Part shown: in pieces, positions 5,806-18,926 of the stretch
Numbering within the stretch: position 1 is the stretch's first letter
How the letters are laid out: each line of letters starts with the position of its first letter
Source: a virus
Virus record (IMG/VR): IMGVR_UViG_3300036900_000398
Location: 1-24,751 of that record
Reading direction: 5' to 3' (one strand)
DNA: 24,751 nt
The notes under the pieces: model-generated
The model's database searches: none
The model's input: the letters and a program-made list of their open reading frames with translations, nothing else
Told to the model about the DNA's origin: nothing
Program-made: the position numbers and the translations under genes

Positions 5806-5974
5806 TGGCGACGACCTCGCGCGCCGCGGCGATCCACGCGGTCTTGAGCGCGTCGGTCATGTCGTCCCATTGCGGCAGGACCTCGCCGCTGATCAGCGAC
5901 ACCCAGCCCGTATTCGTGCAGTACGCCTCGTAGCAGATCCGCCCCAGGCGCTCGTCCTCAGCTTGCATCGTCAT
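5798..5974 (-). CDS. Small conserved-type phage protein (58 aa), function unknown
   Basis: The ORF runs from ATG 5974 (an ATG at 5968 is also possible) to TGA 5798. It overlaps the preceding primase-like gene by ATGA and the portal start by 8 bases, which strongly supports translation. The product has an N-terminal ERLGRICYEAYC helix, a central GWVSLISGEVLPQWDDM segment and a C-terminal helix with AWIAAAREV. The pattern of a W after a loop, then a short acidic stretch and an AW.AAA helix recurs in small phage proteins of unknown role. I can give no function beyond its fixed place directly before the portal gene. Confidence 0.72.
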   Translation of the reverse strand: MTMQAEDERLGRICYEAYCTNTGWVSLISGEVLPQWDDMTDALKTAWIAAAREVVANG

Positions 5975-6657
5975 CCGCGTACATACCTCGCCCAGACGTC
6001 GTACAGGCCGCGCTGATTCGATTGAATCGTTGCCGGCGCCTCGGTCAGCCTGTGGCCGGTGACGGAAAAGAAGCGACGAGTTGTCATCTCCACCCAGTCA
6101 CGGCGTCGACGACCCTCGGGCAGCGTGCCGCGCACGAAGATGCGATACCCGTCACCGCTCGGCGAGTGCTCGGTGTACGAATCAACCGTGCGCACGATGC
6201 GGTCGGCGTCGAGGCGGTGTTCGCTAATGTGGTCCAGGTCGATGCCGACCAGGCCAAAGCGATAGTTGAGCGCGAAGCTGACACCGTCGTACGGGCGCTG
6301 CCCCTGCTTCGGCACCAGGCGGTCCTGGTACGCGCGCCAGCAGTCCTCGAAGTCCGACCAGGTTGCGATGTCCGCCGGATCCGCCACCTCGCCAGTGAAC
6401 GGGTCATACGGTGGTTTGGACCATCGGTTGTCCGCATACTCGTACGCCCAGTTGGCCCAGGCGTGGTGGCGGCGCAGCTCGAGCGGAATGCTGAGCGGGT
6501 CGACACGGAGCGGCCCATTCGGCGGCGGACCTTTCTGCGGCGCGCGCGCCTTCGGGGTCTGGTACTGCTCAAGCCAGCGCGGCGTGATCACGGCTCGCGC
6601 GTGAGTGTAGCGCGCACAGGTCATGGACTCCATTACCTGTTTAGGAATGGACTCCAT
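5971..6657 (-). CDS. Stand-alone AEP/PrimPol-like protein (NrS-1-type catalytic domain)
   Basis: This is an archaeo-eukaryotic-type primase/polymerase domain without a helicase. With the start at ATG 6657 it is 228 residues. The WANWAYEY...WSKPPYDPFTGE stretch (about 68-90) matches the N-terminal strand region of NrS-1-like prim-pols. Motif I is GLVGIDLDH (Asp140, Asp142), motif II is HSPSGDGYRIF (about 164-174), and motif III is VEMTTRRFFSVTGH (about 189-202). All three metal- and nucleotide-binding motifs are therefore present. No downstream HBD or helicase is attached. In-frame ATGs at 6633 and 6624 are alternative starts, the last with GGAG only 3 bases upstream. It overlaps the next gene by ATGA. 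The location between terminase and portal is odd for a replication gene, and the genome also carries a separate primase-helicase at 10495-12561. Confidence 0.78.
   Translation of the reverse strand: MESIPKQVMESMTCARYTHARAVITPRWLEQYQTPKARAPQKGPPPNGPLRVDPLSIPLELRRHHAWANWAYEYADNRWSKPPYDPFTGEVADPADIATWSDFEDCWRAYQDRLVPKQGQRPYDGVSFALNYRFGLVGIDLDHISEHRLDADRIVRTVDSYTEHSPSGDGYRIFVRGTLPEGRRRRDWVEMTTRRFFSVTGHRLTEAPATIQSNQRGLYDVWARYVRG
6623..6657. repeat. Pair of identical 11-bp palindromes at the 5' end of the PrimPol-like gene
   Basis: ATGGACTCCAT occurs at 6623-6633 and 6647-6657. Each copy is a perfect dyad (ATGGA-n-TCCAT), and the following 6 bases match at 5 positions. Centres are 24 bp apart, a little over two helical turns. 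The palindromes coincide with the candidate start codons of the PrimPol-like gene, so they could be operator half-sites, RNA structure at the ribosome binding region, or simply a duplicated start region (the protein repeats QVMES). Confidence 0.5.
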
Positions 6658-6680
6658 GACCTGGGGTAGGCGGTGCAGTG

Positions 6681-6923
6681 CTACGTTGCCGGCTGCACCG
6701 CAGCCGGCGCTGCCAGGCGAGGCCGCGGCCGCGGAATCGGGACCGGCGAGCTGCCGAGCTTGGTGTTCGTGTTGCGCGTCACCTGACTCAGCCACCGACT
6801 AAGCGTCGCGATATCGGGCGGTGCATCTGTACGCACCACAATGCTGAGGCTCGTGTACCAACCATCACTGCCCTCGCGGCTCTGAAACCCTACGAGCTGG
6901 CCTGATCCTGTCGAGTCAATCAT
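6681..6923 (-). CDS. Hypothetical small protein (80 aa)
   Basis: It starts at ATG 6923 with GAGAGGA 7 bases upstream and shares TGATG with the end of the preceding gene. It ends at TAG 6681, 23 bases before the PrimPol-like start. The N-terminal part reads as alternating strands (GQLVGFQSRE, WYTSLSIVVRTD), followed by a helix (ATLSRWLSQV) and a Pro/Arg/Ala-rich tail (PVPIPRPRPRLAAPAAV). I recognise no family. A GTG further upstream (6944) would add seven residues, but the Shine-Dalgarno favours 6923. Confidence 0.68.
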   Translation of the reverse strand: MIDSTGSGQLVGFQSREGSDGWYTSLSIVVRTDAPPDIATLSRWLSQVTRNTNTKLGSSPVPIPRPRPRLAAPAAVQPAT

Positions 6924-10426: not shown

Positions 10427-10471
10427 CCGTATTTCTATATTCCTATATTCCATAGGAATACAGAAATACGG
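10427..10471 (-). promoter_or_regulatory. 20-bp near-perfect AT-rich hairpin between the primase-helicase gene and small zinc genes
   Basis: The left arm is 10427-10446, the loop 10447-10451 and the right arm 10452-10471. 19 of 20 positions pair. The only exception, 10437/10461, is A.C on the plus strand but a U.G wobble in RNA made from the minus strand, the direction of the flanking genes. It is much richer in A/T than its surroundings. There is no T-run downstream in the leftward direction, so it is not a classic intrinsic terminator. It may block or process the late operon message, protect a 3' end, or act as a DNA cruciform or binding site. Confidence 0.75.
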
Positions 10472-10494
10472 AAACTCCATCGAGTTTTGGGCTC

Positions 10495-14930: not shown

Positions 14931-15200
14931 GCCGCCGCCCCGCGTAAATCGAAAAGTCCCCGCTTATTGGCAACGAGAACGTAAAGATTGGTGATGCGTG
15001 CGTGCGCTCCGCGTCACAATTCGCGACGTATGCGCCGCCGTTACACGATCAGGAAGCTGTTTGTCACTCGGTTTTTCCCAAATCTTTTCCCTTTCCGTTG
15101 CCGGTCGGGTGGTGCACACTACTGCTCCTCACATCTTCTTGATGCCGTCGGTCGGGGTAGTGGCGTCGTCAGGTACCGCAAGTGAGGGAGATTGGAAGCA
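14931..15200. promoter_or_regulatory. Divergent intergenic control region between the leftward replication operon and the rightward 312-aa gene
   Basis: No gene is supported in these 270 bases. Both flanking operons must start here. The region is less GC-rich than the genes and includes a pyrimidine-rich tract at about 15059-15098 on the plus strand. I see a TTGTCA-like hexamer near 15061-15066 but no convincing matching -10 element, and no clean leftward promoter. The rightward gene has GGGAG at 15186-15190, 10 bases before its ATG. Promoters are inferred from gene order rather than recognised. Confidence 0.5.
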
Positions 15201-16139
15201 ATGGTTCAGGGCAGCAGTTGGAAAGCCAACCCCGGCAGAACACCGGGCCCCCGAACGCCGCTCGAGAAGGTCCTCAGCGACCTCGAGGGGAGTGCGGCGT
15301 ATTTGCGTACTAACCCATCGTTGAGACGCGTGCCACTCGAGCACCGTGTGAACAAGAAGGCGACCTGCGATCGACTGGCGCCGCTCTCGCGCCCCACGCT
15401 GAACAAGTGGCTGAGCGGCGCCGGCATCCCCTGGCCATTCCCGATGCCTGACCACCTGGTCATCGCCATCGACGCCATCGACCTCACCATCCTGTGGACC
15501 AATGCCGTGGTCGAGAGTGCCCTGCGCCGCGGCCTCATCGGCAAGCACGGCAGCATCCTGCGCGGCAACCGCCCCTCCGAGCCTGGTCACCGTGAACAGC
15601 TCCAGGAGCTAGTCGAGGGCAGACTCGACGTGCACCAGTGCCGCGCATTGTTCGAGCGTGACGACGGCGCGCTGGTGCCCTTCTGCATCGACGTCACTTA
15701 TGGCTGGTGGTACCGCAACTTCCTCATCGTGGGGCTGCAGGCCGGCGACCCAATCCTTCCGCCGCCGCGCGTCAGGGAAGAGCCCAACACTTACAACCAG
15801 ATCATCGTGCTCGATGGCGGCAGCACGCTCGAACTTGGCCCGCGCCTGGCCGTCAATAACCAGATGTCCATCATCGAGCTGAGCAAGAAGGCGTACACCC
15901 TGCACTTCCCCGAGCTCCCATCGCTCACTCTGCCAAGCACGATCATGCTCAACAGCCCGCCGCCGCTACGTCTGACCAGCCAGGACAATCAGCAGTACAT
16001 GCTGGCCGCGGAGCGCGAGCTGAGCGGGCAGTCACCCGTCAAGTGCGCCACCTGCCAGGACCGCGGCCTGGTGCACTATGACCTGCCGGTCGACCATCCC
16101 GATTTCGGCAAGGCGTTTCCCTGCCCAAATTGTCACTGA
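15201..16139 (+). CDS. HTH and C-terminal zinc-module protein (312 aa), possible phage regulator
   Basis: It starts at ATG 15201 with GGGAG 10 bases upstream. Residues about 53-73 (KATCDRLAPLSRPTLNKWLSG) look like a helix-turn-helix. The middle is mixed alpha/beta with aromatic strands (VTYGWWYRNFLIVGLQAG). The last 31 residues carry a CxxC...CxxC module (Cys282, 285, 308, 311) around LPVDHPDFGKAF, like the zinc module seen at the N-terminus of some DnaC-like loaders, though no ATPase is present here. It is the only rightward gene between two leftward operons and has its own terminator, so it is expressed separately. Regulation of the adjacent divergent region is a reasonable guess. Family unknown. 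Confidence 0.75.
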   Translation: MVQGSSWKANPGRTPGPRTPLEKVLSDLEGSAAYLRTNPSLRRVPLEHRVNKKATCDRLAPLSRPTLNKWLSGAGIPWPFPMPDHLVIAIDAIDLTILWTNAVVESALRRGLIGKHGSILRGNRPSEPGHREQLQELVEGRLDVHQCRALFERDDGALVPFCIDVTYGWWYRNFLIVGLQAGDPILPPPRVREEPNTYNQIIVLDGGSTLELGPRLAVNNQMSIIELSKKAYTLHFPELPSLTLPSTIMLNSPPPLRLTSQDNQQYMLAAERELSGQSPVKCATCQDRGLVHYDLPVDHPDFGKAFPCPNCH

Positions 16140-16141
16140 GA

Positions 16142-16175
16142 GCAATCGTCAACCCGTCGTTGACGATTGCCTTTA
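16142..16175 (+). terminator. Terminator hairpin after the 312-aa gene
   Basis: A perfect 12-bp stem (16142-16153 with 16159-16170) and 5-base loop begin two bases after the TGA of the 312-aa gene, followed by a short CTTT run. The stem is strong, but the T-run is weak, so it may work as a factor-independent terminator or as a 3' end stabiliser. Confidence 0.72.
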
Positions 16176-16226: not shown

Positions 16227-16439
16227 GTGGACAAGGACGAGCGCTCGCCGCGGGCAGCCCACGAGGCAGACCTTCGCAGGCAGGCGCGCGCCTTGGCGCC
16301 GGCGTACGACTACATTCGCGCGCTGATCGCACAGTGGGACGTCGAGGACCGCGGGCGCGAGTGTCGCTGCGACCCGCCTGGCTCTGGCGAGGAGTTCTGC
16401 ACCAGGCACTGCCTACGCCGCGAAGATCAGGCGTCCTGA
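16227..16439 (+). CDS. Possible small Cys-rich protein (70 aa)
   Basis: GTG 16227 opens a 70-residue frame with a basic N-terminal helix, AYDYIRALIAQWDVED, and a C-terminal Cys cluster (ECRCDPP, then FCTRHC) that could bind zinc. The amino acid order looks protein-like rather than random. No Shine-Dalgarno is visible, and it overlaps the 3' end of the opposite-strand recombinase gene by 27 bases. Its stop lies one base before the att-like dyad. A longer in-frame start at 16167 exists but crosses the terminator hairpin and the inverted repeat. Moderately supported only. Confidence 0.42.
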   Translation: MDKDERSPRAAHEADLRRQARALAPAYDYIRALIAQWDVEDRGRECRCDPPGSGEEFCTRHCLRREDQAS

Positions 16440-18164
16440 CGGTAGTAATTGCACCGCGAACTTCAAGAACGACGCGGCAGAATTACTACCATCGTCCTGG
16501 CCAAGCACTAGCGCACCGGACCAGGCGATCGGCACCTCGCGGCGAGGCTTCATCTGCGCCAGGATCGGCTGGCCGTCGCCACCGACGCGCGCGTGGATGT
16601 CCACCAGCTCGATCAACTGTCGTCGTTGCGCTGGCGTGGCGCGCACGCCGACCTTGGCCACCATCGCCGCCAGGCGCTCGATCTCCGCGGCCTCATCGGC
16701 GCTGATGCCGACACCGGGTGCCGCCTGAACCTGCTTCAGGTCGCGGCGCAGTCGGACCAGGAGCTGCTTGGTCTCGTCGCGGGCGGCGACATGGATGGGC
16801 AGCTCTTCATCAGCCTCGTCGGTGCCTTCGGCCTCCAGCTCCGTCACACGCTTGACGTGGATGGCCAGCAGGCGCTCCTGCTGCTTGATGCTGGCAGCGA
16901 TCGCCTGCTCGCGATCCTCGCGGCCCTGGTCGTCGAAACGGCGGCATTCGCGCGCGTCCTGGAGGTCAGCCCGCAGGCGCTCAGGGTCGCTCATGGCCGC
17001 GATCAGCTCTGACCAGGCGCGCTCCTCGAGGACCTCCGCGCGAATCGTCGGCAGCTCGCACTGCGGCACATCCTCGAAGCGGGCGCGCTGCTTGACGCCC
17101 CAGTGGAACGGGCAGAGGTAGTACCGATCGCCCTGGCGGTTGGCGCGCTTGGAGTGCAGGTACACGTCGCTGCCCTGGCGCGCTGAGCACGGCTCGCACA
17201 CCAGGCGCCCGCGGAACAGGAACTCGTCGTCGTCGGTGCCCTTGCGTCCTGGGCCGCGGCGGCTCTTGCGCTCGGCCAGCGCGGCCTGCACGCGCTCGTA
17301 CAGGTCCTCAGTGACAATCAGCGGGATCTGTCGCGTCTGCTTATGGAAGGTGTACACACCGTGGTACAGGTGCGAGGTGAGGATGCGGTACACCGAGTCG
17401 TCGCCCCAGCGGACACCGGCGTTGGCGGTGTACTTCGCCTTGCGGAAGGTGCGCGCCGCGCCAGGCGGCGGGATGCGCTCGTCCTGGAGCCACTGTAATA
17501 GGTCGCCGACGGGTGAGCTCAACGCGCGTCGATAGAGCTCACGAACGATCTTCGCCTCGGGCTCATACACCTCGTAGTCACACACGCGGTGCTTCGGCGT
17601 GGTGTCGCGCAGGTAGCGATAGCCGTACGGCGCGGTGCCCTGGCCAACCACCTTGCCGGCGGCTGCCTTGTCGCGGCGCGAGTTCATGGTGCGCCAGCGG
17701 ATCTTGGCCTTCTCCAGCTCGTTGTCCATGAAGGCTTCGACTTCCATCTTCTGACGCCAGTGCTCGGCGTATGGGTTGCCGTCGGTCGCCTCAGGCACCT
17801 CAGGGATGTCGGCAAACACCACGCGGACGCCGTACTCGCGCACCTGGCGCGTCATCCACAGACCCTTGGCCGTGTCGCGCGTCCAGCGATCAGAGCCCGG
17901 AATCAGCAGCGTCTTGAACCGCCCCGAGCGAGCCATTTCCACGCAGCGGTCCAGGTCGGGCAGGCTCCAGAGCGCACCGCTGGCGTTGTCTTCGACGCCG
18001 TCGCGGAACCGGAGATCATCAGGGACGACGACGTGGAGGTCGCGCGCCATCTCATCGACGCTGCGCTCCTGGCGTCTGAATCCGTACCCGTAGAGCGCCT
18101 GGACCTGGCGACTGACGCGCTCGTACGACGCCGCGGTCTCGGCAGGGTCAGTTGCCCAGCTCAC
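16413..18164 (-). CDS. Large serine recombinase (phage integrase)
   Basis: This 583-residue protein would integrate or excise the phage by cutting at attP/attB. The N-terminal resolvase domain has YERVS with catalytic Ser18 and Arg16, and SDRWTRD (91-97) with the conserved arginines. The recombinase domain (about 175-300) contains APYGYRYLRD and VYRILTSHLYHGVY. A zinc ribbon follows (Cys323, Cys326, Cys351, His354), then a coiled coil (about 400-500) and a C-terminal DNA-binding tail. The C-terminus ends LIFAA. GTG 18164 has GGAG 8 bases upstream and overlaps the XRE stop by GTGA. The last codons overlap a dyad that looks like an attachment site. The family is certain; use of this site is inferred. 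Confidence 0.95.
   Translation of the reverse strand: MSWATDPAETAASYERVSRQVQALYGYGFRRQERSVDEMARDLHVVVPDDLRFRDGVEDNASGALWSLPDLDRCVEMARSGRFKTLLIPGSDRWTRDTAKGLWMTRQVREYGVRVVFADIPEVPEATDGNPYAEHWRQKMEVEAFMDNELEKAKIRWRTMNSRRDKAAAGKVVGQGTAPYGYRYLRDTTPKHRVCDYEVYEPEAKIVRELYRRALSSPVGDLLQWLQDERIPPPGAARTFRKAKYTANAGVRWGDDSVYRILTSHLYHGVYTFHKQTRQIPLIVTEDLYERVQAALAERKSRRGPGRKGTDDDEFLFRGRLVCEPCSARQGSDVYLHSKRANRQGDRYYLCPFHWGVKQRARFEDVPQCELPTIRAEVLEERAWSELIAAMSDPERLRADLQDARECRRFDDQGREDREQAIAASIKQQERLLAIHVKRVTELEAEGTDEADEELPIHVAARDETKQLLVRLRRDLKQVQAAPGVGISADEAAEIERLAAMVAKVGVRATPAQRRQLIELVDIHARVGGDGQPILAQMKPRREVPIAWSGALVLGQDDGSNSAASFLKFAVQLLPSGRLIFAA
16441..16490. other. Candidate serine-integrase attachment site (attP-like dyad) inside the recombinase gene 3' end
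   Basis: Two 24-bp half-sites (16441-16464 and the reverse complement of 16467-16490) match at 18 of 24 positions around a central AA at 16465-16466. The outer 10 bp match perfectly (GGTAGTAATT), the inner CCGCG matches, and the three bases next to the centre match. Size, dyad symmetry and a central dinucleotide are what large serine integrases use for attP. Its place at the integrase gene fits. It is more A/T-rich than the surroundings. No second copy was seen in the window. Confidence 0.55.
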
Positions 18165-18487
18165 CCGATGAGCTCCGACGGCTTGACCTTGAGGGCACGC
18201 GCGATCTTGCGCAGGGTGGAGGGCAGCACGTTCGGGTCTCCGCCCTCGAGGCGGACGATGGTGGTGTGCGCGACGCCGGCGAGCTTGGCGAGATCGCGCT
18301 GCGAGAGCGCCGCGCGTGTGCGGAGGGTCTTCAGGTTGGCGAGGGCGGGCACTGCTGATTCCTCTCGAAGGATGCGGCGGGCCGCGCCATCAAGGATGCG
18401 CTGGACCTCTTGCCGCACCGGCTCGGGCAACTCAGACACGATAGCTGATGGTACGGCGGCGGTCGCGCCACGAACTTGTGGGAGCAT
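18161..18487 (-). CDS. XRE-family HTH regulator co-transcribed with the recombinase
   Basis: With the start at ATG 18487 it has 108 residues. Residues 1-50 are a helical region (VSELPEPVRQEVQRILDG). Residues about 52-107 are a classic lambda-repressor-type HTH: LKTLRTRAALSQRDLAKLAG, then AHTTIVRLEGG and TLRKIARALKVKPSELIG. No Shine-Dalgarno precedes the ATG. Instead an extended -10 (TGCTATCAT) ends 7 bases upstream, so the message is probably leaderless. The stop overlaps the recombinase start (GTGA). It likely represses its own and the opposing promoter. Alternative roles are a recombination directionality factor or an antitoxin-like regulator, but no toxin gene adjoins it. Confidence 0.88.
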   Translation of the reverse strand: MLPQVRGATAAVPSAIVSELPEPVRQEVQRILDGAARRILREESAVPALANLKTLRTRAALSQRDLAKLAGVAHTTIVRLEGGDPNVLPSTLRKIARALKVKPSELIG

Positions 18488-18493
18488 GCCATG

Positions 18494-18499
18494 ATGATA
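18494..18499 (-). promoter_or_regulatory. Leftward extended -10 promoter element of the XRE-recombinase operon
   Basis: Read on the minus strand, TGC-TATCAT is an extended -10 (TGn plus 5 of 6 consensus bases). It ends 7 bases before ATG 18487, so transcription would start at or within a base or two of the start codon. No good -35 is present, as is common with extended -10 promoters. Confidence 0.55.
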
Positions 18500-18508
18500 G
18501 CACAGTGG

Positions 18509-18538
18509 TTGCATGGCGATGCGATGGTGAGGTATTAT
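18509..18538 (+). promoter_or_regulatory. Rightward promoter of the accessory operon
   Basis: The -35 TTGCAT (18509-18514) and -10 TATTAT (18533-18538) are separated by 18 bases. The -10 ends 7 bases before ATG 18546, which has no Shine-Dalgarno, so transcription should start at the ATG and produce a leaderless message. It lies back to back with the leftward element within 60 bases. Confidence 0.68.
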
Positions 18539-18545
18539 TCCAGGC

Positions 18546-18926
18546 ATGCAGAGCCTCAAGCTCCACGCTTACTTCACCTCCCCGTACTTCAGCGACAGTC
18601 ACGCGCCGACGCACTTCGAGTTCCGCCAGGACTTCCCCACCATCGAAGCTGCAACCGCCTTCGTGGCGCAGTTCCCGAAGACGACCAAGATGTTCACGTT
18701 CACGGTCCACACAAGCGAAGGCGGCAAGTACTACGGCGTCGCCACTCGCGCGAACCTGGCCAGCGACCGCAATAACGGCGGCATCAACGAGACCGGACTT
18801 CGCCGCTACCAGGCAGTCACCAAAGCTGCCGCCAAGCTCGGCATCGAGATCGTCTGCGTCCCCAATGCCGCAAACGCCTACGAGACGCGCGAAGCGTTCG
18901 AGCAGGCAATCGGAGGCGCCCGATGA
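18546..18926 (+). CDS. Hypothetical protein (126 aa), first gene of the rightward operon
   Basis: The ATG at 18546 immediately follows a near-consensus promoter. The product has an N-terminal strand-rich half (LKLHAYFTSPYF; MFTFTVHTSEGGKYYGV) and a C-terminal helical half (TGLRRYQAVTKAAAKLGIEIV; TREAFEQAI). I recognise no domain. As the leaderless first gene opposite the XRE regulator it occupies the position of a cro-like or early gene, but no HTH is visible. It overlaps the next gene by ATGA. Confidence 0.72.
   Translation: MQSLKLHAYFTSPYFSDSHAPTHFEFRQDFPTIEAATAFVAQFPKTTKMFTFTVHTSEGGKYYGVATRANLASDRNNGGINETGLRRYQAVTKAAAKLGIEIVCVPNAANAYETREAFEQAIGGAR

Follow-up and report, generated by a model that had tools for sequence, protein, structure and literature searches.

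The locus described here raises the question of whether a serine integrase may have its attachment site within its own coding sequence and, if so, what integration would do to the enzyme. The window, which is the whole stretch of DNA analysed, is a linear IMG/VR virus record of 24,751 bp. The original prediction held that an inverted repeat of the type used by large serine integrases lies in the last codons of the recombinase gene, and that integration at this repeat could replace the C-terminus of the recombinase and alter its stability or activity.

The integrase gene and its neighbours

The following genes of the window are relevant to this question.

16413..18164, minus strand: large serine integrase gene (int), an ORF of 583 aa with the C-terminus ...LLPSGRLIFAA
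18161..18559, minus strand: HTH (Cro/C1-type) regulator gene (Pfam HTH_3, 2.9e-11; PHROG transcriptional regulators)
16227..16439, plus strand: small convergent ORF of ~70 aa with a putative GTG start, the last codons of which overlap the 3' end of int

The int product matched the Pfam domains Resolvase (2.8e-11) and Recombinase (2.8e-9), both above the cut-off, and PHROG 95, integrase (9.6e-48). A Pfam zinc ribbon match (3.4e-4, 21.4 bits) was under the 25.3 cut-off but was located at the expected place. With its Resolvase and Recombinase domains and a sub-threshold zinc ribbon, the recombinase of the window is, as judged from its sequence, a large serine integrase. A sequence search among solved structures gave no match to it. 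A structure model of low confidence contained long helices at residues 394-481; apparent strands in the tail (residues 569-582) were discounted, since the AlphaFold model was poor, with a mean pLDDT of 59 and values under 40 in the tail.

The HTH regulator gene overlaps the start of int by 4 nt, and the two genes are likely to be expressed from one shared transcript. For the small convergent ORF, which had no family match, a homologue was found in all five relatives of the window (described below), with a conserved core, LAPxYxxIR, and an end located 23-29 nt within int. In L003, L005 and L006, an HTH gene of the same orientation lies ahead of this ORF. In three relatives, its TAG stop is the complement of an invariant CTA codon of int. 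Its position, and only its position, suggests that the ORF is a candidate directionality factor.

An inverted repeat at the 3' end of int

The dyad and the parts of int that it concerns are as follows.

16438..16493, no strand: predicted attP dyad of about 50-56 bp, an inverted repeat within the int coding sequence, codons ~558-576
16473..16493, no strand: int-proximal half-site, a dyad arm predicted to remain joined to the main part of int once the phage has integrated
16438..16458, no strand: distal half-site, a dyad arm predicted to go to the other prophage end
16465..16466, no strand: dyad centre and predicted crossover dinucleotide, AA (plus strand) or TT (coding strand), bases 1 and 2 of the TTG codon for Leu567
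16413..16463, minus strand: codons of the 16-residue tail, KFAVQLLPSGRLIFAA, and the stop, predicted to be swapped for host codons on integration

The two arms are complementary at 17 of 21 positions, and 18 of 25 half-site positions match about the centre at 16465-16466. The dyad falls within the final ~27 codons of int; of the 583 residues encoded, the 16 after Leu567 form the tail. Its position, its centre, the Leu codon and the 16-residue tail ending in LIFAA were all as originally predicted.

When the window alone was scanned for dyads, this one ranked third among ~49,000 centres, and synonymous-codon shuffling of the window gene alone reached its score in 8.5% of trials (p = 0.085); the single sequence is therefore suggestive and no proof of the dyad. 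Inverted repeats were also present elsewhere in the window. At 10427-10472, a near-perfect palindrome (21/25), CCGTATTTCTATATTCCTATATTCCATAGGAATACAGAAATACGG, lies between two minus-strand ORFs; it is operator-like and outscores the attP dyad. Two near-identical repeats, ATGGACTCCAT[TG]ACCTG, form a strong dyad (19/25) at 6617-6664, in or near the minus-strand ORF 5971-6795, and a perfect 12-bp inverted repeat, GCAATCGTCAAC / GTTGACGATTGC, which is terminator-like, is present at 16142-16170, directly past the plus-strand ORF 15192-16139.

Conservation of the dyad in relatives

We compared the window gene with those of five IMG/VR relatives (L003, L002, L005, L006 and L010), the integrases of which are 56-69% identical to that of the window over the full length; all comparisons of six homologues refer to these six sequences only. 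All six had a dyad centred at one position, the TT of a Leu codon, TTG, that is invariant among them. Summed over the homologues, 103 of 156 half-site positions paired at this centre, with other homologous centres in int having a mean of 43.3 (sd 9.0) and a next best value of 74 of 156. Redrawing of the synonymous codons gave 73.7 pairs (sd 5.0), and 103 was reached in 0 of 20000 trials. When the flanks (500 nt upstream and 400 nt downstream of int) were aligned and scanned at fixed offsets, no competing dyad exceeded 63/156.

Across the six homologues, 92% of the pairs of the named dyad structure were formed. Six pairs had changed on both sides, for example from GG/CC to GA/TC in the arms, indicating covariation, and pairing fell to 25-51% when the partner arm was slid by one to three bases. 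Synonymous-codon identity among the six genes, compared over all intervals of int, peaked over the dyad, the TTG codon at the centre and the CTA codon in the arm being identical in 15 of 15 pairs of genes (4.7 expected). The presence of the dyad at the same codon in six homologues, together with compensatory changes in its arms, removes the doubt attached to the single sequence, and this conservation and covariation back the earlier claim that the dyad is of the large-serine-integrase type and lies within the integrase gene.

Identification of the dyad as a putative attP

The attP of the A118 serine integrase is 50 bp long with a central 2-bp crossover (PMC3556126), and in the solved Listeria integrase-attP half-site the RD contacts lie in the inner ~12 bp, with positions 16-24 forming a ZD motif of 9 bp (PMC3783163). 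The conserved dyad pairs at offsets 1-3, 7-10 and 14-24, a spacing of the arm that fits the solved Listeria half-site. In most phages, attP is adjacent to int (PMC5311408). The same dyad scan, applied to two positive controls, placed the top dyad of A118 45 nt past the int stop and that of R4 33 nt ahead of the int start, the latter being next to a published primer site for R4 attP (PMC6549336). The dyad of the window, likewise, is an imperfect dyad of ~50 bp with a 2-bp centre, located near int and conserved with the integrase. It is almost certainly the attP of the serine integrase, and the location of this putative site within the int coding sequence is strongly supported by the comparison of homologues.

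Alternatively, the dyad might be an operator, form a hairpin in RNA, or terminate transcription in both directions between the convergent genes. It does sit between two convergent genes, and an RNA stem would also give base-pair covariation. However, a T-run is absent after both arms, the 14-nt centre and the symmetric non-pairing positions are conserved as well as the pairs, and no other att candidate was found near int in this integrase family; in addition, the length, the two-part half-site and the non-palindromic central dinucleotide all fit serine-integrase sites. The hairpin or terminator reading was rejected because of the missing T-run, the conserved centre and the serine-integrase-like layout, and we regard any such function in place of attP as highly improbable.

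Predicted exchange of the integrase tail

With the dyad as attP, one integrase dimer would bind the ~50-bp site and cut at the central TT, and the attP halves would then each be joined to one half of the host attB. As the site occupies codons ~558-576, the prophage int is predicted to have a host-coded tail, consisting of residues 1-566 plus Leu or Phe, followed by read-through into host DNA. An attP in this location means that integration would exchange the C-terminus of the integrase, the phage-coded 16-residue tail being replaced by a host-coded tail and regained after excision. The small convergent gene, with its stop on the distal side at 16439, would stay whole at the other prophage end. 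In the free phage, the tail would contribute in some way to the function of the enzyme, a contribution that the lysogen form would lack.

Searches of genome contigs with two alignments revealed no relative, and hence no host genome, attB, attL or attR for the family of the window. Searches of viral contigs for this integrase family yielded the five relatives only, none of them integrated, and a search of viral contigs with the distal half-site returned just the known relatives and chance matches. Terminase matches were scattered, all being under 34% identical, and a search for tRNA found none. Since an integrated member and an attB were not found for this family, we infer the crossover at 16465-16466 by the window integrase from the symmetry of the dyad.

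Tail exchange in Janus-like phages of Streptomyces

We examined the integrases of the Streptomyces Janus-like group (Arquatrovirinae), comprising Janus, Animus, Andris, Diane, Sentinel, Spernnie and phiScoe1, as the most similar annotated serine integrases, these being about 25% identical to that of the window. The best dyad in these phages is found within int, 60-66 nt short of its 3' end, and has 115 of 208 pairs, compared with a null of 95.5±4.9 in which 0 of 5000 trials reached this value; synonymous conservation of int is at or near its peak over this dyad.

A search of viral contigs with the Janus-like integrases yielded 24 loci. Complete loci with phage-type ends had tails such as STKGIRGTASGFEFEIGSTKAS, and in two loci, L055 and L069 (IMG/VR 2934171749 and 2767802072), the integrase directly adjoined the contig edge and had the tails STQGITRAEAERAAA and STKGITGAGLVGSAA, respectively. 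These two were taken as isolate proviruses from their identifiers, their contig-edge position and the altered junction, rather than from a stated annotation. Their DNA matches that of the phages through CCACC[AC]AGGGGAT, a stretch that includes the centre of the dyad, and diverges immediately thereafter. At its opposite end, L055 runs only as far as the beginning of a gene with 72% identity to the one that comes after int in phage Tefunt, indicating that the provirus corresponds to the phage genome opened at a point past the 3' end of int and ahead of the neighbouring gene. The attR of L055 and L069 was looked for and not recovered, in L055 because the contig ends at the start of that gene. 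Thus, in the Janus-like proviruses, the Int C-terminus is replaced right after the dyad centre by a host-coded tail. For a phage of the Janus group, the integration junction is predicted to fall within CCACCAAGGGGAT, with a host-coded Int tail. The host tails of L055 and L069 both start with GATCACC[AG]G and both end in AA. Their common start suggests that the two proviruses share one attB.

The predicted replacement of the C-terminus on integration is therefore seen in L055 and L069, whereas no integrated copy was found for the family of the window, in which a tail swap is well supported by analogy. The Janus-like phages resemble the window in having a dyad in the 3' end of int and frozen synonymous codons, but differ in the integrase itself (~25% identity), in an unrelated site sequence, in a centre located in a Thr codon and in a following gene that is co-directional with int. 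Their layout is apparently an independent instance.

Constraint on the tail and possible reasons for the layout

The last six integrase codons had a pairwise amino-acid identity of 0.71 among the six homologues, the rest of the enzyme averaging 0.62, and 28% of the other six-residue stretches of the enzyme were at least as conserved as the tail. Past the arm, synonymous sites were free as expected (CTG/CTT/CTC and GCG/GCC/GCT), with the residues R-L-x-F-[AV]-A being kept, and the differences at the three codon positions of the tail were 14, 24 and 44 of 90. Residues 550-563, ahead of the site, were poorly conserved (0.31 identity). Conservation of the tail solely through the overlapping antisense ORF was rejected, the identity being 0.71 in the int frame compared with 0.36 in the in-phase antisense frame. 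The pattern is that of arms constrained as DNA and of last residues constrained as protein at an ordinary level.

This constraint may be viewed in two ways. The layout could represent a two-state switch, in which the free-phage tail tunes the stability of Int, for example as an ssrA-like FAA/FVA degron, or its activity, such that an infecting phage would have a short-lived or integration-competent Int, and the Int made in the lysogen would behave differently. In line with a switch, the tail codons past the arm are constrained in the int frame, and all six integrase tails end in hydrophobic-x-F-[AV]-A (FAA or FVA), which is compatible with a degron; of ~100 other genes called in the window and the contigs of the relatives, 3 have a product ending in AA. 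LAA and LVA are known forms of the ssrA tag (PMC9382460). BPs-type phages do likewise on their repressor (PMC4557955, PMC8092301), the attP-dependent C-terminal change acting on that protein in combination with a tyrosine integrase (PMC4557955, PMC8092301, PMC9934374), and some BPs-type integrases also bear C-terminal proteolysis signals (PMC4557955, PMC8092301). However, many six-residue stretches of the enzyme are equally or more conserved, as noted above, and, since conservation of the tail is ordinary, a plain structural role explains it equally well. In addition, the Janus-like free-phage tails end in KAS, KTA, KSA or STR and it is the provirus tails that end in AA (AAA or SAA), which reverses the logic of BPs. 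The tail is a possible degron, but a switch of this kind seems to us rather unlikely.

On the other hand, attP may have moved into the 3' end of int, by drift or by selection, in a neutral compaction owed only to the enzyme and its site travelling together, with the tail being replaceable and the swap of no consequence. As attP normally adjoins int (PMC5311408), 45 nt after it in A118 and 33 nt before it in R4, a small overlap would be a short step. The poor conservation of residues 550-563 favours this possibility, and archaeal suicidal integrases have been argued to gain from compact modules (PMC8371274). The purifying selection on the last six residues in the int frame, however, would be unexpected for a fully dispensable tail, and we consider the chances of compaction with an inconsequential swap to be about even. 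The layout is most likely kept mainly as a compact enzyme-plus-site module. The best explanation overall, to which we assign a probability of about 0.87, is that the dyad is the attP of its own integrase, that integration would exchange the tail, and that a compact module is the main reason for the layout. A bolder proposal, that bacterial phages have a serine integrase with two heritable forms, one with the phage tail that integrates and one with the host tail in the lysogen, such that the reaction reprograms the enzyme, and that this arose at least twice, is put forward only tentatively and is at present doubtful.

Comparison with other systems

The Listeria A118 / LI integrase is likewise a large serine integrase with an attP of ~50 bp, a central 2-bp crossover, and inner RD and outer ZD motifs (PMC3556126, PMC3783163), but its attP lies about 45 nt past the int stop, outside the gene, and integration therefore leaves Int unchanged. 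R4 and phiJoe also have a serine integrase with attP beside int, but upstream of the gene (18 bp upstream in phiJoe, PMC5311408). The archaeal suicidal (SSV-type) integrases have the att site in their own gene, which is altered by integration (PMC8371274), as is predicted for that of the window; they differ in being tyrosine enzymes, and integration breaks their gene into two fragments, both inactive, whereas in the serine integrase of the window only the 16-residue tail is predicted to be exchanged. The BPs-type phages have an attP in a coding sequence, different C-termini in virus and prophage, and -AA tags (PMC4557955, PMC8092301), and are matched in this by the putative attP of the window, its predicted tail exchange and the possibly tag-like FAA or FVA endings of the integrases, but they have attP in the repressor gene and a tyrosine integrase, and their switch acts on immunity. 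In the window, the dyad lies in int, the HTH gene at 18161-18559 is upstream and untouched, and the recombinase has serine recombinase domains. The likeness to BPs drawn in the original prediction is a loose one, as BPs has a tyrosine integrase and its attP is located in the repressor gene (PMC4557955).

Our search, which covered the open-access literature, turned up no description of attP lying within the coding sequence of a serine integrase. Among published arrangements, that of the archaeal suicidal tyrosine integrases comes closest, and the integrase of the window would be a serine, tail-swapping variant of it.

Significance

In a recent review, self-disrupting recombinases were stated to be found only in archaea (PMC8371274); here, two unrelated groups of bacterial phages with serine integrases appear to have the target site in their own int, and in one of them, the Janus-like group, the altered int gene can be read directly in proviruses. 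The Int sequenced from a lysogen would accordingly differ from the Int that carried out the integration. This would affect the mining of integrases from prophages for genome engineering, since the cloned gene would bear a host-coded tail and attP would be split. The layout also makes it possible to test cleanly whether the direction or the lifetime of the reaction depends on the C-terminal tail of a serine integrase.
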